Source of the DNA: a virus | Reading direction: 5' to 3' (one strand) | Length of the DNA: 64,000 nucleotides | IMG/VR virus record: IMGVR_UViG_3300033049_000066 | Coordinates: 62,001-126,000 of that record | Part shown: positions 4,355-56,489 of the stretch, one piece after another | Layout: every line of letters begins with the position of its first letter | How positions within the stretch are numbered: position 1 is the stretch's first letter | The notes under the pieces: generated by a model | What the model was told of the DNA's origin: nothing | The model's input: the letters and a program-made list of their open reading frames with translations, nothing else | Databases searched by the model: none | Made by a program: the position numbers and the translations under genes

Positions 4355-7300
4355 ATGGCATCAACAATTAATACATCAAACATTGATACAACATACCCGA
4401 TCGCTGGGCAAGACAACGACAGCCAGGGCTTTCGTGATAACTTCACGAATATTAACACTAATTTCGCATCTGCGAAGACTGAGATAGAAGACTTACAAGG
4501 TAAGGTCATTCTCAAGTCTGCACTGACCGGAACAACGTTAGATAATGACATGGCCGGCGCGCTAATAACAGCCGCGCAGATCCAGGGCTTCCGAGGCACA
4601 GTTAAAAACATCGCCTCAGTAGCAGCAGCCGCTGAAATCAACGTATCTGAAGGTCCGTATCAGCAAATCACGCCAACCGAAAGCACTACATTATCCTTTA
4701 CAAACTGGTCACCGAGCGGAACACATAGCGCGGTGCAAGTTGAAATTACAATAACTGACGTGTTGTTTACAGTTACCTTGCCAGGAACTGTAACCCTTGG
4801 CACAGATGGACTGCTGGGATTTGACGGCACTAAAATTACATTTGCGAGTCTCGGTACGTTTATCTTTGAATTCTCCACTGTAACTGCCGGTGGCACCATT
4901 GCAATAACTGACGTAACTAGAGGACGCTCACTCAACTTAGTCGACGATTTAACTCCCCAACTTGGCGGAAGCTTAGATGTTAACGGTAATTCAATTGTAT
5001 CAATTACTAATGGTGATATTATTATCGCGCCCGGTGGCACCGGTGACCTTATTCTTGATGGGCTTAGCTGGCCACAATCAGATGGCGGGATCGGCTATTT
5101 CTTACAAACTAATGGCTCGGGTCAACTTAGTTGGTCGGCATCCGCAGGAATCTCGAATATAATTGAAGATTCTAGTCCCCAGCTTGGTGGAACGTTAGAT
5201 GTTAACGGTAATTCAATTGTATCAATTACTAATGGTAATATTGCTATTACGCCAGATGGAATCGGCAGTATTGTTCTTGATGGACTTAACTGGCCACAAG
5301 CAGATGGAACAGCTTCTTATTTCTTACAAACAGATGGCTCGGGTCAACTTAGTTGGTCGGCCGCTGGTGGATTGCTAAATGTAGTTGAAGATTTAACACC
5401 TCAGCTTGGTGGAACGTTAGATGTTAACGGCTTTTCTATAATAACTACTGATGCAATCGAAGCCGCAGTTAGTCCGATCCTTATAACAGGCGGAAATGAA
5501 TCAGGCACCACCGGTCAATATGCAGGCCATGTAACATTGCAGGGTGGAAATGCCTCGCCCGGCACAGCCGGTAGCGTCAATCTATACGCTGGCAGCACCA
5601 CCAGCGGTTCATATTACGCCGGCAACGTTCGTGTATACGGGGGTGATGCGGCTAGTAACAAAGGTGGTGGCATCATTATAAAGAGCGGCGACGCCTTATC
5701 TGCTAATAGTAACTTCGACAGTGGCCTGATTTTTATAACCACACCTAGCCCAACTGCTGGCGGAAGCGGTGGTAACATTAATCTTACTACAGGCAATGGT
5801 AGCGGCCCATATGGCGACGGTGGCACCATTAATATCACAGCCGGTAACAGTGCCTTATATTTCGGCGGTGATGTTAACATCTCTGCTGGCTCTGGTGGCA
5901 CTGGGTACTTTGGAGGTCACGTTAACATCACCGCAGGTACCAGCAATGCCGGGTACGTAGGCGACATAGTATTAACTGCTGGCGCTGGTGGTGTAGCAGG
6001 TGAAGGTGCGGTAGAAATTAAAAATGCTAACTCTGCAATCTCAGGTCGAGTACACATTTACGAAAGTAGCGCAAATGGCACGAATAAAGTACAACTACTT
6101 GCCCCTGTCACATTAGCTGCCGACACGAATTTTGTATTCCCACCAACAGATGGTGCCAACGGTGAGGTACTGTCAACAGATGGTAGCGGTGTTACATCTT
6201 GGATTGCGGCCGGCGGGAGCAATAACTGGCTGACGGCAAACAATGGTTCAGATTTTTCAGTCGCACCGACTGCGGCGTTCCTTAATGCCATTACTATTGG
6301 CAATGGCGCATCTTCGGGATATAGAGATTCGATTGCCATCGGGACAAGCGCTAATGCATTAGGTAGAAGCGTATCAATTGGTGAGGGATCCAGTGGCACC
6401 GGATCGTATTGTGTGGCGATAGGTAAAGCAGCTCAAGCTAATTCGTCAACTACAACTGTAGTCGGGTATAACGCCGTTGCTAATGGGAATAGTGGTATAT
6501 CTTTAGGTCCAAATACTATCTCATCCGGTAGTAACTCTATTGTTATTGGTAATGGATCAAGTGCAGCACTTAATAATTCTATTGCTATTGGTAGCGATAC
6601 TGATGTTGTATTGGTGAATCAAACGGCAATTGGCTACCGGTGTGACGCAGGTGTAGTAACAACAGATGTTGCCTACTCAGTTAAGATTGGTGCAGGTAAT
6701 CCATTTGCGTCTACTGATAAAAACATGCTTCACTTATTCAGTAAGGGTAAACTTGAATTATATGGTGATGAAGCACAATATATATTACCTAATTATGCAA
6801 CTGGTTCAATTCCAGCTACTACCAATGAAGGTGGTGCTGTTTGGGATTCAACAACCAAAGAACTTAAGATATATAACGGAACTGCATTCACCGCTATCGG
6901 CGGTGGTGGAGCATCCAATAACTGGATAAGTGCGAACGTAGGCGTTGATTTTGCAACTGCGCCATCTTCTATTTCGACTAACTCAATTGTAATTGGTGAT
7001 AATGCCTTTGCTGGCAATGGTGTACTTGAAATCGAGGGTATTGCTATAGGTAAAGATGCAGGGGCTGGTCGTGCTTATAGTATCGCAATTGGATCAAATG
7101 CTGGACTGTTCACTGGCGCACCAACCACCAACTCAGCCAGTATCGCTATCGGGCAGAATGCACAAACTACCGGCGCATTTGATATTGTCGTTGGCCGAAA
7201 TTCTAGTTCAGAGGCAGGTAGCTCTAATGTAGCAATAGGTAACACCGCCCGAGCATACGGCACCGCCGTAGATAGTATTGTAATGGGGCGCGAATCGCTA

Positions 7301-8736: not shown

Positions 8737-8976
8737 ATGGAACATCCAAATCTAGACGTAACGAAAATTAAATCTGATCTATCGCTTGAAGATATTCAGC
8801 AAAAAATCTTAGATCTTCGCCAGCGTATATCATTTGCGTACCAGATGAACAATCAGCCAATGCTACATCAACTTGAAATGATCCTTGCGGTTTACACACG
8901 TTCGCAAAATGAGATTCTTGAAGAAATGTACAAAAGTTCAGACCAAAACCTCGACGACCAAATTGATGTATCATAG
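8737..8976 (+). CDS. conserved small helical T4-like phage protein
   Basis: 79 residues, almost entirely helical, with the pattern LSLEDIQQKILDLRQRISFAYQ followed by MLHQLEMIL. Proteins with this pattern occur next to structural genes in T4-like phages of aquatic bacteria, but no function is established to my knowledge. It starts 13 bases after mazG and precedes a gene with a clean AGGAG ribosome binding site. Confidence 0.7.
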   Translation: MEHPNLDVTKIKSDLSLEDIQQKILDLRQRISFAYQMNNQPMLHQLEMILAVYTRSQNEILEEMYKSSDQNLDDQIDVS

Positions 8977-51123: not shown

Positions 51124-51807
51124 ATGAGTTTCAATAAAATAAAAACAAATCCAGAGCTGGGGCACGAAATTGCTAAGCATCTTGAAAAAATAGGTGTACA
51201 AACACCAATGAAAGACAACGGTCTAGATCGGACAACAAAAATTGATATTATTACACAAAAAATGACCGATATTATGACAACGTTAGGGCTTGATCTAACC
51301 GATGACAGCTTAATGGATACACCAAAACGTGTGGCAAAAATGTACGTTAACGAAATATTTTGGGGGCTAGATGCAGACGCATTTCCAAAATGTACCGCGG
51401 TAGAAAACAAAATGAATTACGATGCTATGGTTGTAGAACGTAACATTAATGTTCAGTCAAATTGCGAACATCACTTTGTTGTAATTGATGGTTTCGCAAC
51501 CGTCGCGTACATTCCGGGAAAAACTGTAATTGGTCTTAGTAAGATTAATCGTGTAGTTGAATACTTCGCGAAGCGACCACAAATACAAGAACGACTAACG
51601 GCGCAAATTTATTATGCACTAGCGTATATACTAAACACAGAAGATGTTGGTGTTATTATTGACGCCCAGCATTTTTGTGTAAAATCAAGGGGCGTCGAAG
51701 ATGTAGGTAGTAGCACCGTCACTAGTAAATTAGGTGGCGCATTTAAAAACGATCCAGCAACTAGAGCTGAATTCCTTGCAATTTTTAACAACAACGGTAA
51801 TCATTAA
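51124..51807 (+). CDS. folE: GTP cyclohydrolase I
   Basis: 227 residues. DTPKRVAKMYVNEIFWG, then the zinc/active-site motif SNCEHHFVVIDG, VIGLSKINRVVEYFAKRPQ, QERLTAQI and AQHFCVKSRGV are all as in FolE. It makes 7,8-dihydroneopterin triphosphate from GTP, the first step toward 7-deazaguanines (and folate). The N-terminal 60 residues are longer than in the minimal enzyme. It is followed two bases later by a small gene. Transcription starts at an apparently repressible promoter. Confidence 0.95.
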   Translation: MSFNKIKTNPELGHEIAKHLEKIGVQTPMKDNGLDRTTKIDIITQKMTDIMTTLGLDLTDDSLMDTPKRVAKMYVNEIFWGLDADAFPKCTAVENKMNYDAMVVERNINVQSNCEHHFVVIDGFATVAYIPGKTVIGLSKINRVVEYFAKRPQIQERLTAQIYYALAYILNTEDVGVIIDAQHFCVKSRGVEDVGSSTVTSKLGGAFKNDPATRAEFLAIFNNNGNH

Positions 51808-51809
51808 TT

Positions 51810-52142
51810 ATGATATTTTTTAAAAAACTATTAGCTAGGTGGGCGGCGGAAGGAACGCAAGCATACGAATACAACGGAGAACCGTTGTATACCTCGGCGA
51901 CATCCGCAGCTAATGCTAAGCGGCCATACAACGGTGAATCACGTGGAGAGGAATTTAAGAATCCAATGAACATTACATTGTACAACGCAATGGGCGGGCG
52001 AATTATTAAATTTCATAGTTACAATCGCAAGTTGGAGCAATCGCAAGAAACCACGTACATCGTTCCGAGTGATGAAGATTTTGAAAGTGCGCTAGGACAG
52101 TTTATTACGATTGAAGCAATGAAGCACACTAACAATGAGTAA
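51810..52142 (+). CDS. hypothetical protein
   Basis: 110 residues. The basic, aromatic N-terminus (MIFFKKLLARWAAEG) may associate with membrane. The rest includes YNGEPLYTSATSAANAKRPY and ITLYNAMGGRIIKFHSYNRK, then an acidic end. It starts two bases after folE and overlaps the next gene. Not recognised. Confidence 0.58.
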   Translation: MIFFKKLLARWAAEGTQAYEYNGEPLYTSATSAANAKRPYNGESRGEEFKNPMNITLYNAMGGRIIKFHSYNRKLEQSQETTYIVPSDEDFESALGQFITIEAMKHTNNE

Positions 52143-52464
52143 TTCATCTGACTTACATAATTTATATAATTTACCGGATGATCAATTTTTATGGCCGACG
52201 GGCAAGCCGGTTGTGGGCAGCACCGTACAGGTTACTACACAGAACGGGACTATCCCCGTCTACGATCGTGGGCTAGTTGTCAAAGATGCAGACGGAAACG
52301 ACGTTGATGTTGGTGAGTTTATAACCTCGGTCAATAAACGTTTATGTATAATACAACCAAGTCTTGAAGCGCACGAGAAATATCCGGCGTTGAAGGATGC
52401 GTATGATCAATATAAAATGTTAGAAAAATTGCTAATGGAAGGTGATAATGCTAACAAAGATTAA
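52135..52464 (+). CDS. small protein ending in the 'PALkDaydqY' helical module
   Basis: 109 residues. The N-terminal part (QFLWPTGKPVVGSTVQVTTQ, VYDRGLVVKDADGNDVDVG) is beta-rich. The C-terminal helix HEKYPALKDAYDQYKMLEKL is the same module found in genes 42235-42900 and 47776-48574. It overlaps both neighbours. Function unknown. Confidence 0.62.
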   Translation: MSNSSDLHNLYNLPDDQFLWPTGKPVVGSTVQVTTQNGTIPVYDRGLVVKDADGNDVDVGEFITSVNKRLCIIQPSLEAHEKYPALKDAYDQYKMLEKLLMEGDNANKD

Positions 52465-52657
52465 AATTTTCGTGCAATGTAAATTGTTCGGCCTGCACGA
52501 TTGGACCTGTGCTAGAGAACAAGGCATTCCCGCCACCCAGGATCAGATCTCCGGCGGAGTTCAAGGTTTTACTAATTATGCGAAACTGTATTGTAAGGAT
52601 TGCGGTACGATTAGCAGGCTGTCACAAAGACAGATTGATGATGTCTTTAAACGTTAA
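52448..52657 (+). CDS. small protein with possible zinc-binding cysteines
   Basis: 69 residues from ATG 52448 (GGAAGG upstream). IFVQCKLFGLHDWTC and KLYCKDCG provide four cysteines in two pairs, a zinc-ribbon-like arrangement. The C-terminus is charged (SQRQIDDVFKR). Its TAA stop lies one base before the tRNA, so the tRNA may be processed from this transcript. Confidence 0.6.
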   Translation: MLTKIKIFVQCKLFGLHDWTCAREQGIPATQDQISGGVQGFTNYAKLYCKDCGTISRLSQRQIDDVFKR

Positions 52658-52658
52658 A

Positions 52659-52732
52659 GTCTGCGTAGCTAAGAGGCCTAGCAAGGGATTTTAAATCTCT
52701 GCACGTGGGTTCGACCCCCACCGCAGGCACCA
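52659..52732 (+). tRNA. tRNA with anticodon UUA (putative ochre suppressor), CCA encoded
   Basis: 74 bases forming a full class I cloverleaf: acceptor 52659-52665 with 52722-52728 (7 bp, one G-U), D stem GCTA/TAGC, anticodon stem AGGGA/TCTCT with loop TTTTAAA, 4-base variable region, perfect T stem GTGGG/CCCAC with loop TTCGACC, discriminator A and CCA at 52730-52732. The five-bp anticodon stem places UUA at 34-36, which reads UAA. It lacks the long variable arm of tRNA-Leu. Shifting the loop to read UUU (Lys) or UAA (Leu) breaks two stem pairs. Confidence 0.85.
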
Positions 52733-52779
52733 AATATTATACTAACATTAATCACTCATTAATCACTTCAGGAACTACA

Positions 52780-53484
52780 ATGAATCAAGATATTAAAGAA
52801 CAATTTTTGCGTGATACTAAAAATCACACCATGGAGGTCCTGCACGAAGATGGACTGTATCGTCACCTAAGATTTACAAAAGGTGGCTCACAGTGCTATC
52901 GCTTCGACATCCATACCTGGCCTGGATTTTTATGTATTTGTCAAGACATGGGAACTTACGTTTTTAGTCGCACACCCGACATGTTTGATTTCTTCCGGCT
53001 GAAGGACAATGACTGGAGCAAAAAGCATATTATCAACACGGGGTACTGGGCAGAAAAGTTACAAGCGGTAGATCGTGACTCGGCGCGAGGTGATGGTAGC
53101 GGCGCGACGGAATTCTCGCAAGAAAAATTTGCCGAGCACGTAAAGGAAGAATATGACAATTTCTGCGAAGGGCTAGCGGACCATGATGAAGACGAACTTA
53201 CAGAAGCGTTTGACGATGACCGCTCGATGAAATCACAGCTTGCGGAATTGTGGGAATGTCTTGAATCGGAGGTGATTGCGCAGTCTTACGATGGGCAACT
53301 TAGAGCGTATGATGCGGCGATGGGATTTGAGTGGCAAGACGATAACGGCAACCTCGCGTTCGACATGCATGACTTTTGGGATCATAACTGCACGGAATAT
53401 ACATTTCACTTTATTTGGTTGCTACACGCAATCGTGTACGGAATTGGGGAATACGATAAACTGAATTTAGTAAATGATACCTAA
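52780..53484 (+). CDS. conserved phage hypothetical protein
   Basis: 234 residues from ATG 52780; an upstream in-frame start would lie inside the tRNA. LYRHLRFTKGGSQCYRFDI, then TWPGFLCICQDMGTYVFSR and MFDFFR are the hallmarks of a family present in many tailed phages, never characterised to my knowledge. The C-terminal part is acidic with FHFIWLLHAIVYGIGEYDKL. It overlaps the next gene by 11 bases. Confidence 0.72.
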   Translation: MNQDIKEQFLRDTKNHTMEVLHEDGLYRHLRFTKGGSQCYRFDIHTWPGFLCICQDMGTYVFSRTPDMFDFFRLKDNDWSKKHIINTGYWAEKLQAVDRDSARGDGSGATEFSQEKFAEHVKEEYDNFCEGLADHDEDELTEAFDDDRSMKSQLAELWECLESEVIAQSYDGQLRAYDAAMGFEWQDDNGNLAFDMHDFWDHNCTEYTFHFIWLLHAIVYGIGEYDKLNLVNDT

Positions 53485-53656
53485 TTCCAAATTTTCAAAT
53501 TATGAAGTATTCGTACAAGAGGTAATAATTAAATTCATTACCGAATGCGATGATCCAACTGAAATACGATGTATTGCTGAATTTTACAGAGTTGATTTAG
53601 ATCAATTTAAGATTGATCATTATGAAGAAATACTATTTGCGTTATTGAAGAAATGA
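53474..53656 (+). CDS. hypothetical small protein
   Basis: 60 residues, helical and acidic (VFVQEVIIKFITECDDPTEI; YEEILFALLKK). It starts inside the end of the preceding gene. The stop region overlaps the queD promoter. Function unknown. Confidence 0.55.
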   Translation: MIPNSKFSNYEVFVQEVIIKFITECDDPTEIRCIAEFYRVDLDQFKIDHYEEILFALLKK

Positions 53657-53665
53657 TGTTATAAT
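53637..53665 (+). promoter_or_regulatory. sigma70-type promoter for queD
   Basis: TTGCGT 53637-53642, 17 bases, TATAAT 53660-53665; TTAGGAG precedes ATG 53700. Confidence 0.6.
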
Positions 53666-53699
53666 ACAGTATGCGTAAACAAATTATTAGGAGTATTAT

Positions 53700-54293
53700 A
53701 TGAAGTGGACAATAGATAAAAGTTTTGACTGGTGCTATGGTCACCGCGTACATAATCAGTCGTTGAATGCAGATTTCACCGGCGCGGACGGTGCCTGCCT
53801 CGCATGTAGACATTTACACGGTCATCAAGGACAGCTTAAGGTTATGCTAGAGGGCGATGAACTAATCCGTGGAATGGTCACGGATTTTAAACATCTGGGC
53901 TGGATGAAAACGTTCATAGACGATGTCTTAGATCATAAGTTCATCATGGACATCAATGATCCTCTGTTACCACACGAGGTACCGGATTACTACGGAAATG
54001 CGATTGCGACTAGCGACAGTCACATTGCAGCAGGCGGGCTGCTGCTGAGTAGATGTACAGAATATCCCGAGGGGTACTGGACGCCACGCTTAGATTTGCT
54101 ACCATCCGACACGATACAGGCCGTCCGTGAAAAATATGAAGGCATTATATTCGTTGATTTCGTACCGACCTCAGAGAACTTGGCAGCGTGGTTGCTTGGC
54201 ATAGCACAGAAAAAGATGAAGGAACTAGATGTTAAGGTGGTAGCCGTAGAATTTTGGGAGACCCCAAAGAGCCATTGCAGGGTGGAAATATAA
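53700..54293 (+). CDS. queD: 6-carboxytetrahydropterin synthase QueD
   Basis: 197 residues. Zinc ligands and catalytic residues are visible: GHRVHNQ, CLACRHLHGHQGQLKV (catalytic Cys, then HxH), MVTDFKHLGWM, VLDHKFIMDIND (catalytic Asp-His) and a final VEFWETPKSHCRV. QueD turns FolE product into 6-carboxytetrahydropterin, the second step of 7-deazaguanine synthesis. A ~25-residue insertion before LDH and an insert after (DSHIAAGG) make it longer than bacterial QueD. Confidence 0.92.
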   Translation: MKWTIDKSFDWCYGHRVHNQSLNADFTGADGACLACRHLHGHQGQLKVMLEGDELIRGMVTDFKHLGWMKTFIDDVLDHKFIMDINDPLLPHEVPDYYGNAIATSDSHIAAGGLLLSRCTEYPEGYWTPRLDLLPSDTIQAVREKYEGIIFVDFVPTSENLAAWLLGIAQKKMKELDVKVVAVEFWETPKSHCRVEI

Positions 54294-54303
54294 TCCATAT
54301 CAG

Positions 54304-54311
54304 ACTAAATA
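54304..54311 (+). promoter_or_regulatory. late promoter (ACTAAATA)
   Basis: ACTAAATA 17 bases before ATG 54329, with TAGGAGAG between; it would express the two membrane/secreted genes late. Confidence 0.5.
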
Positions 54312-54328
54312 CTTGATAGGAGAGTATA

Positions 54329-54688
54329 ATGTTTGATCGTTACACGAAAAATTTCAGAGAAAAACCATTTGCGACTATAAGCGGTACTGTCGCATTTGCG
54401 GTCGGCGTAGTTGGATTAATTACAGCTGGCAATCAAGCTGCGGAACATGTTGGTGAATACTTTGTTTCGGCGGCAGAATTAGAGATCGCCAAGACAGAAG
54501 TGATCAGCGTTATACGCAAGGAAGCAATTATAACAAGAAATGTAATTGTTGGAGAAATTTTAGTGCGAAAGTCTGAATTGCAACGTGAACTTGAAGATAC
54601 AAAAGATGCCGGGCGTATCAGCTCAATCTTAGAAGATATCACGGTGCTGAACCACCGACTAAATAAGATAAGAGGAATAGATGAATGA
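54329..54688 (+). CDS. membrane protein with coiled-coil tail
   Basis: 119 residues. One transmembrane helix (about 17-37: ATISGTVAFAVGVVGLITAG) is followed by a long charged coiled coil (about 48-115). The positive N-terminus suggests the N-terminus stays in the cytoplasm and the coiled coil extends into the periplasm. The next gene, a secreted protein, overlaps by ATGA. The pair looks like an inner-membrane/periplasm two-component set such as spanins, but the second protein lacks a lipobox. Confidence 0.65.
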   Translation: MFDRYTKNFREKPFATISGTVAFAVGVVGLITAGNQAAEHVGEYFVSAAELEIAKTEVISVIRKEAIITRNVIVGEILVRKSELQRELEDTKDAGRISSILEDITVLNHRLNKIRGIDE

Positions 54689-54960
54689 AGTACATTATAC
54701 TCGCAACATTATTATTTATTAGCGCAGCCCAAGCTGGCGGTTATAAAAATCAATCTATTCAGCAAGAGCTTCGGAGTACTCCTGAAATGTCAGCTCGATG
54801 CAACGCAAATATTAATTACTTCGAGCGAAAAGTTTTTAAGTACAGCACAAAAGTTCATATTGGAACCGGAGAAAAAATAAAACTCCGGTACTACAGAGAT
54901 GAACTAGAATCATGGATAGATTACTGCGTCAATGATGCGGCAGATCCAGACTTTCAATAA
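54685..54960 (+). CDS. secreted periplasmic small protein
   Basis: 91 residues. Sec signal peptide MKYIILATLLFISAAQA (cleavage before GGYKN). The mature part has two cysteines (SARCNANINYF and WIDYCVND) that could form a disulfide. No lipobox or enzymatic motif. It overlaps the membrane protein gene before it, so they may act together in lysis or superinfection exclusion. Confidence 0.65.
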   Translation: MKYIILATLLFISAAQAGGYKNQSIQQELRSTPEMSARCNANINYFERKVFKYSTKVHIGTGEKIKLRYYRDELESWIDYCVNDAADPDFQ

Positions 54961-55052
54961 ATTAACTATAGTCCACAAAGAATATCCACAGTAACAACTA
55001 CTTAGAATGAATTATTAACATTCATTACGGCTCATTGATTTAAAAATAGAGG

Positions 55053-55081
55053 TTGACAGAACTAATATAATATCGTATAAT
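55053..55081 (+). promoter_or_regulatory. consensus sigma70 promoter for the phosphoribosyltransferase-queE unit
   Basis: Perfect TTGACA 55053-55058 and TATAAT 55076-55081 with 17 bases between. Just upstream, CTCATTGATTTA is a relic of the repeated promoter cassette. Confidence 0.88.
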
Positions 55082-55102
55082 ATAACCATAGGAGAATTTT
55101 TA

Positions 55103-55624
55103 ATGAATAAAACTTATTTAAATTACAATGACGTGGAAGCGCATTGTCTAGAAATCGCACAAAATATTTCGCGTGACGATTGGCACCCGGATTATATCAT
55201 CGGCTTGACCCGTGGTGGGCTGCTACCGGCAACGCTGCTAAGTCATCGACTAAACGTGCCGATGTCCTCACTGGATGTAAGTTTGCGTGATGGCGGCATG
55301 GAATCGTGTAGTAATTGCTGGATGGCCGAAGACGCGTTCAATGGAAAAAATTTACTAATTGTCGACGATATAAATGATACAGGTGCGACACTACAGTGGA
55401 TTGTAGATGACTGGATGTCGAGCAATTTGCCCAACGATCCCAAATGGGGGACGATTTTTGGTGACAACGCTCGCTTCGCCACTATTGTAAATAATGCCGG
55501 TAGTGATTTTAAAAACGTTTCCTACAGTGGGCTACAAATTAATAAAGATGAAGATGATTCCTGGATTGTTTTTCCGTGGGAGGAGTGGCAGCCAGCAATA
55601 GGAGAGAAAGATGGCGAAGATTAA
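55103..55624 (+). CDS. phosphoribosyltransferase (Gpt/Hpt-like)
   Basis: 173 residues. The PRPP-binding motif is LLIVDDINDTGAT (about 89-101). The flexible loop and N-terminal GLTRGGLLPATLLSHRL match xanthine-guanine phosphoribosyltransferases. It would convert a purine base plus PRPP to a nucleotide in the cytoplasm. It is directly upstream of and overlapping queE, so it may handle a 7-deazaguanine or guanine base. Substrate is not determinable from sequence. Confidence 0.85.
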   Translation: MNKTYLNYNDVEAHCLEIAQNISRDDWHPDYIIGLTRGGLLPATLLSHRLNVPMSSLDVSLRDGGMESCSNCWMAEDAFNGKNLLIVDDINDTGATLQWIVDDWMSSNLPNDPKWGTIFGDNARFATIVNNAGSDFKNVSYSGLQINKDEDDSWIVFPWEEWQPAIGEKDGED

Positions 55625-56489
55625 AGTAGCAGAGGTGTTTCATAGCCTCCAGGGTGAAGGATTACACACCGGCATACCGTCAGTTTTCGTAAGGACATTC
55701 GGATGCAATTTTCAATGTGCTGGATTTGGTATGCCGCCAGGTAAGAAAACAACTGAGCCGGATGAAATTGCTGCGAACTTTTTAAAAGAAAACCCAAGCA
55801 CGACATATACTGGCCTTCCACTTGCTTTGACTGGGTGTGACAGCTATGCAAGCTGGCACCCAAAGTTTAAATCACTTAGCCCGGTACAGGCAGTTACAGA
55901 AATTGTCACCAGGATGGAAGATACACGCAAAGAAGATAGTGGCATGCGGTACAACAACGGCAGTACGCATCTTGTCATAACTGGTGGTGAACCGCTACTG
56001 GGTTGGCAGAGAGCATATCCTGAATTATTTGATGAGGTAGCCAACAAAGGCTATCGTCACATAACCTTTGAGACCAACGGAACACAGAAAATCACAGATA
56101 AATTTGCAGATTATTTACTGCTGCGACAGATTAAAAAAACAAAGGATGAGAACACAATCACGTTCAGTGTTAGTCCCAAGTTGTCGTGCTCCGGCGAACT
56201 ACAAGAAGAAGCACTACGGCCTGAAATTGTAGCAAGCTATCAAAAATTTGGTACAGTGTACTTAAAATTTGTAGTCGCAAGCAATGATGACATGGCTGAT
56301 GTTGTAACTTTTGTAAATGCCTATAAGGAAGCTGGTTGGGATGGTGAAGTTTATCTTATGCCATGCGGTGGCGACACTGAATTATATAATTTAAATGCCC
56401 CTGAGGTCGCCAAGCTTGCGATGACATACGGCATGAGATACAGCGCACGGCTACAGGTTGACCTTTGGAAAAATGCCCACGGCACCTAA
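55611..56489 (+). CDS. queE: 7-carboxy-7-deazaguanine synthase QueE-like (radical SAM)
   Basis: 292 residues. VAEVFHSLQGEGLHTGIPSV is the QueE opening. The radical-SAM cysteines are C32 and C36 (FGCNFQCAGFG), but the third Cys expected at C39 is Phe, and the next cysteine is C76 in LTGCDSYASW. GGEPLLGW is the SAM-binding GGE motif. It converts 6-carboxytetrahydropterin to 7-carboxy-7-deazaguanine. This C-x3-C-x39-C spacing matches a phage variant of QueE. It lies in one unit with the phosphoribosyltransferase; QueC is not seen in the window. Confidence 0.88.
   Translation: MAKIKVAEVFHSLQGEGLHTGIPSVFVRTFGCNFQCAGFGMPPGKKTTEPDEIAANFLKENPSTTYTGLPLALTGCDSYASWHPKFKSLSPVQAVTEIVTRMEDTRKEDSGMRYNNGSTHLVITGGEPLLGWQRAYPELFDEVANKGYRHITFETNGTQKITDKFADYLLLRQIKKTKDENTITFSVSPKLSCSGELQEEALRPEIVASYQKFGTVYLKFVVASNDDMADVVTFVNAYKEAGWDGEVYLMPCGGDTELYNLNAPEVAKLAMTYGMRYSARLQVDLWKNAHGT

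Follow-up and report, generated by a model that had tools for sequence, protein, structure and literature searches.

A tRNA gene in a jumbo-phage record has the anticodon UUA, and we interpret it as a nonsense-suppressor tRNA gene akin to a phage lineage of tRNAs that carry the anticodon CUA. The wobble base would most simply have changed from C34 to U34. We give this reading a probability of roughly 0.55. We favor it because the gene fits a complete cloverleaf, because stop anticodons are found at this site in two related phages, and because the tRNA resembles CUA tRNAs even if the anticodon loop is masked. (Throughout, "the window" is the stretch of 64,000 nucleotides that we analyzed, which is bases 62001-126000 of a virus record of 293,278 bases, or G000.)

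The tRNA gene lies at 52659..52732 on the + strand. ARAGORN reports a class I tRNA whose full length is 74 nt, with the anticodon TTA at gene position 33 (52691..52693, +); the anticodon can also be read directly from the sequence. The 3' CCA is encoded (52730..52732, +) and is visible both in the sequence and in the cloverleaf drawing. The gene matches the whole of the Rfam model RF00005 (51.1 bits, E = 4.8e-8; the gathering score is 29). The stems have 7 (acceptor), 4 (D), 5 (anticodon), and 5 (T) base pairs, the anticodon loop is UUUUAAA, and the variable region is 4 nt. An earlier, sequence-only reading of this DNA had described a complete cloverleaf with an ochre anticodon (UUA) in positions 34-36, and both points hold. 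It had also called the anticodon stem (AGGGA/TCTCT) perfect; the stem is complete, but one of its pairs is G-U, so the pairs are not all Watson-Crick. Overall, the gene has two of the features of a nonsense suppressor, a complete cloverleaf and an anticodon complementary to a stop codon. The UUA anticodon is expected to pair with UAA and, through wobble, with UAG.

The short variable region also means that this is not a tRNA-Leu, as had been proposed from the sequence. Both this region and the UUA anticodon exclude tRNA-Leu(UAA), which has a long variable arm and the anticodon UAA; a separate Leu(UAA) tRNA is present in the phage's main tRNA array. The anticodon is a stop-reading one and belongs to neither Leu nor Lys. 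If the tRNA is folded free-standing, then a structure other than the cloverleaf has the lowest energy (-26.8 vs. -23.6 kcal/mol for the cloverleaf), partly because the UUU and AAA of the loop can pair with each other. This is unremarkable in a tRNA that lacks modifications, yet it leaves room for poor function. We assigned the cloverleaf because of the match to the covariance model and because of covariation with the CUA relatives (see below). A scan for promoters and terminators found nothing beyond chance.

G000 is a jumbo-phage record of about 293 kb with the standard code. The DNA polymerase that it encodes shares 41-46% identity with the enzymes of jumbo phages (Phosso, 121Q, RaK2, and GAP32, for example). 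Upstream of the tRNA are FolE (GTP cyclohydrolase I; 51124..51807, +; PF01227, E = 2.1e-61) and an ORF that translates to 69 amino acids (52448..52657, +), with 1 nt between its stop codon and the tRNA. Downstream are a phrog_4657 protein (52780..53484, +; PHROGs E = 1.7e-54) and a QueD-like 6-pyruvoyl-tetrahydropterin synthase (53700..54293, +; PF01242, E = 1.1e-24). The genes for FolE, the tRNA, phrog_4657, and the QueD-like and QueE-like proteins are all on the same strand, and the tRNA lies inside this FolE, QueD, and QueE cluster (51124-56489). The cluster suggests the synthesis of 7-deazaguanine for the modification of DNA or tRNA.

The sequence-only reading had described this as the only tRNA, which is correct for the window but not for the phage: ARAGORN identified 25 more in a separate array (G000:142.9-158.3 kb), 28-44 kb from the window tRNA. 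None of these 25 has a stop anticodon. (Two of them, Gln(UUG) tRNAs at L009:1466-1551 and 4714-4797, combine a class I anticodon with long, class II-like variable arms. In the array of the relative G001 (L216, L217), the same long arms are found in tRNAs for Glu, Thr, Lys, Ile(UAU), Ile(GAU), Met, Gln, and Asn, and the annotation of phage XacN1 gives tRNA sizes similar to those of the long-armed class I tRNAs of G000 and G001.)

G001 (IMG/VR 3300032254_000001; 344,483 bases) is the closest syntenic relative, and it has a CUA (amber) tRNA at the same site (L105:8114-8187). We found it with FolE as the bait: relatives were taken from the best 80 FolE loci with up to 6 kb of fetched flank, and just one of these 80 closest loci, L105 of G001, has a tRNA near FolE. 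As in the window, the tRNA sits between FolE and phrog_4657/QueD, and an ORF resembling the 69-aa ORF also lies downstream of FolE. Between the window and L105, the proteins are 77% (FolE), 65% (phrog_4657), 72% (QueD), and 61% (an upstream epimerase) identical. The two tRNAs are alike in neighborhood, in size, and in having a stop anticodon, and they are about 75% identical. The G001 tRNA differs in its anticodon (CUA, which reads UAG only) and in its discriminator base (G73 instead of A73). So UUA is not kept in the single syntenic relative, but neither does that relative have a sense anticodon, which favors the sequence-only reading of a stop-reading tRNA. The site is predicted to hold a stop-reading tRNA in both phages, for UAA and UAG in G000 and for UAG in G001.

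Other searches did not add to this pair. An exact-sequence scan for the window tRNA gave no match outside its own record, and a pattern search of viral contigs with phrog_4657 as the bait found no relatives. In a DNA-polymerase search, none of the 80 loci that we kept has a tRNA within reach; the four that are most similar (81-85% identical) come from contigs too short to extend to the tRNA site. As a separate observation, G001 encodes a protein with an RF-1 domain (G001:54566-54817; PF00472, E = 6.6e-18). At about 145 amino acids, it is similar in size to ArfB, a ribosome-rescue factor, and it is absent from G000.

Similarity to CUA tRNAs extends beyond G001. When we compared both tRNAs to those of named phages with BLAST, Salmonella phage Arash and Stenotrophomonas phages DLP_3 and Summit were among the best, and ARAGORN gives the anticodon CUA for all three tRNAs. 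(In GenBank, the Arash tRNA (OQ632216; L244:1499-1573) is labeled as Phe and the DLP_3 tRNA (MT110073; L367:2496-2569) as Glu.) These tRNAs are like the window's in the D-arm, in overall sequence, and in having a stop anticodon; they differ in that the anticodon is CUA, and they are from other phage groups with other gene neighborhoods. A pattern scan that allowed C or U at position 34 matched 31 contigs, all with CUA. In an anticodon-blind scan for the D-arm, 118 viral contigs among the matches listed have a called tRNA; 31 of these are CUA, the rest are sense tRNAs, and none is UUA. None of the 28 cellular contigs with the same D-arm has a stop anticodon. The D-arm motif itself was rejected as a marker of suppressors, as phage tRNAs of many anticodons share it.

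The anticodon-blind scan then served as a control, with 110 distinct tRNAs that are matched in the D-arm. In this matched, listed set, the five nearest to the window tRNA are all CUA if the anticodon loop is masked. The mean identity to the window tRNA is 0.70 for CUA tRNAs and 0.62 for the others (p = 4.6e-10, which is inflated by near copies). With the anticodon masked, the five nearest among 1,267 tRNAs are again CUA, in a set that our searches had enriched in CUA tRNAs. In a tree built without the loop, the window tRNA lies beside the Arash-type and G001 CUA tRNAs with low support (61, from few columns), and CUA tRNAs overall do not form a single clade in this tree. The nearest sense tRNAs are Lys for the G001 and DLP_3 tRNAs and a mix of Gln, Thr, and Lys for the window tRNA. 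UUA tRNAs do exist elsewhere in IMG/VR, but they are scarce, while CUA tRNAs are common: a generic scan for UUA gave at least 119 stretches, with at least 5 ARAGORN UUA tRNAs in at least 4 contigs. One Arash-like phage contig has both a UUA and a CUA tRNA (L393:5566-5644 and 8778-8852); its UUA tRNA is unlike the window's.

Conservation of the cloverleaf by compensatory changes can be seen in an alignment (A1) of 15 stop-anticodon tRNAs. Across these sequences, the cloverleaf is paired in 94.6% of cells, vs. 35-40% for slid structures, and 11 of its 21 pairs have two-sided changes. The covariation score is 0.46, vs. 0.18 in shuffles, and no shuffle reached the observed score. Also, A36-A37-A38, the usual MiaA motif, is invariant across the 15 tRNAs. 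The compensatory changes and the invariant motif speak for a working tRNA, in an alignment whose rows other than the window's are all CUA relatives. (In 12 of the 15 tRNAs, a C-A or A-C mismatch at 31-39, A1 columns 30 and 38, leaves an anticodon stem of 4 bp; in the window, G001, and DLP_3 tRNAs, this pair is A-U.)

The most serious alternative is that the gene is decaying or hardly used: a former amber suppressor could have drifted to UUA, be a poor substrate for charging or for the ribosome, and have no present effect. Stop codon usage is consistent with this. Among 265 predicted genes in G000 (from a home-made gene finder that was run on 20-kb pieces), the terminators are TAA 172 times, TAG 47 times, and TGA 46 times, so neither TAA nor TAG is depleted. 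UAA ends 65% of the genes, and it is indeed the stop codon of most genes, as the sequence-only reading had it; UAG ends 18%. Furthermore, the share of TAG is higher in G000 than in G001 (47/265 vs. 37/364, p = 0.006), and UUA tRNAs are scarce relative to CUA tRNAs. On the other hand, decay usually breaks stems, and here the four stems are intact, the differences from the relative are compensatory, and the CCA is encoded. Overall, we consider an idle or decaying gene to be unlikely, although it deserves to be taken seriously.

Terminator use also bears on the CUA line. Near CUA tRNAs in other phages, TAG is a rarer terminator (8/209) than near D-arm-matched sense tRNAs (66/556; p = 5e-4, but the contigs are related and not independent, and the sense tRNAs are those among the matches listed). 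This hints that the CUA line is active. The pattern would fit a CUA tRNA that decodes UAG and a UUA form that does so less; a caveat is that the contigs are related and that the orthologue-matched comparison of TAG in G000 and G001 (21 vs. 10, p = 0.07) is not significant.

The sequence-only reading had suggested regulated read-through late in infection, which would affect particular phage genes. Such a use of suppressor tRNAs has been proposed for recoded phages (PMC10879173, PMC10746230). But we have several pieces of evidence against it. First, UAA and UAG end genes at ordinary rates, and we found no genes in G000 that are broken in frame by TAA or TAG. Second, a tblastn comparison of G000 to G001 gave no convincing homology past UAA or UAG, although short or unconserved targets could be missed. 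The exceptions were tail-fiber-like paralogues that lie side by side. Third, second in-frame stops within six codons are not more common after TAA or TAG than after TGA. Fourth, the in-frame cases that we inspected are separate adjacent genes; most of them have a start of their own, and a Shine-Dalgarno sequence can be seen for many. Fifth, we did not find a release-factor domain in G000, or a synthetase of the Glu/Gln or Lys type, which are the synthetase types that we searched for. A published search in phage XacN1 likewise found no target (PMC5852040). Late read-through of particular genes thus seems improbable. (We also rejected the TAG at L012:2622 as a candidate for read-through: the large in-frame stretch that follows it is a neighboring paralogue, which has a Shine-Dalgarno sequence and an ATG of its own. 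The tail-fiber-like genes are in tandem at L012:1911-10700, or G000:41911-50700, and the three C-termini that we read are KWRG, KWRG, and KWRI.)

Another idea is that phage tRNAs, including this one, defend against host immunity that cleaves tRNAs, either by replacing the cut host tRNAs or by distracting from them. The phage does have about 25 other tRNAs, and altered anticodon loops of phage tRNAs have been proposed to resist anticodon nucleases (PMC10264068). However, a UUA tRNA is normally absent from hosts, so replacement leaves the stop anticodon unexplained, and we think that defense is quite improbable as the explanation. An assembly or sequencing error that turned CUA into UUA is less probable still. 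The two anticodons differ only at base 52691, and the record is a consensus from a metagenome, but the window tRNA has many differences from the G001 tRNA, mostly as pairs in the stems, plus loop position 32, and there is no sign of a local error. Finally, genome-wide reassignment of UAA or UAG to an amino acid, which the presence of the tRNA alone might suggest, is refuted by stop usage: table 11 leaves long genes unbroken, TAA serves as the main terminator, and the TAG at L012:2622 follows a KWRG end that is shared with a paralogue. A published survey of 10,754 jumbo phages found none that recodes TAA (PMC13037316).

If the gene is a suppressor related to the CUA line, then a change from C34 to U34 in an amber suppressor would yield UUA; we infer this direction of change. 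The tRNA would probably be transcribed together with its neighbors and charged by a host synthetase, with Lys or Gln as our best guesses for the amino acid. Some UAA and UAG codons would then be given an amino acid, at low efficiency and in competition with the host's RF1 and RF2. Because the standard code is kept, suppression would have to be weak enough to tolerate, or else to matter only at certain sites or times. A stronger version is that this is an active natural ochre suppressor, derived from an amber suppressor by the wobble switch, which causes low-level and widespread C-terminal extensions of phage and host proteins. We hold this version only tentatively. Several observations count against our preferred explanation: there is no footprint in G000, the one syntenic relative lacks UUA, and the loop UUUUAAA can pair with itself.

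The two phages bear on the question of why several standard-code jumbo phages keep stop-reading tRNAs that have no known target. G000 and G001 are a clean comparison, with one locus that has CUA in one phage and UUA in the other. Since UAA is the main terminator in G000, an active suppressor should be most costly there, and its cost should be simplest to quantify. UAG is used less near CUA tRNAs and more in the phage with UUA, which is only a hint, though a testable one, that the anticodon shapes the choice of terminator.

Ochre suppressors with the UUA anticodon are familiar from E. coli, where supB, supC, supG, and supL read UAA and UAG, generally weakly. The window tRNA has the same anticodon, but the E. 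coli suppressors are laboratory mutants of the host's Gln, Tyr, or Lys tRNA genes. Our literature search, with its incomplete coverage, found no published UUA tRNA from a phage. In recoded phages (codes 15 and 4), Sup-CTA or Sup-TCA tRNAs are frequent (PMC11210395). Like G000, these phages encode a tRNA with a stop anticodon, but their genes are broken by in-frame TAG or TGA, and G000 has no such genes. Close parallels are standard-code jumbo phages with no identified target: XacN1 has two CUA tRNAs (PMC5852040), RsoM2USA has a CUA tRNA (PMC8504454), and Atu_ph07 has a UCA tRNA (PMC6102473). Each combines one or two stop-reading tRNAs with a large set of tRNAs and the standard code, as in G000, but they read UAG or UGA and not UAA. 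Also, the two CUA copies of XacN1 are within its tRNA-rich terminal repeat, unlike the window tRNA. CUA and UCA tRNAs are thus already on record from jumbo phages that keep the standard code, and the tRNA that we describe is an ochre variant of this familiar type.
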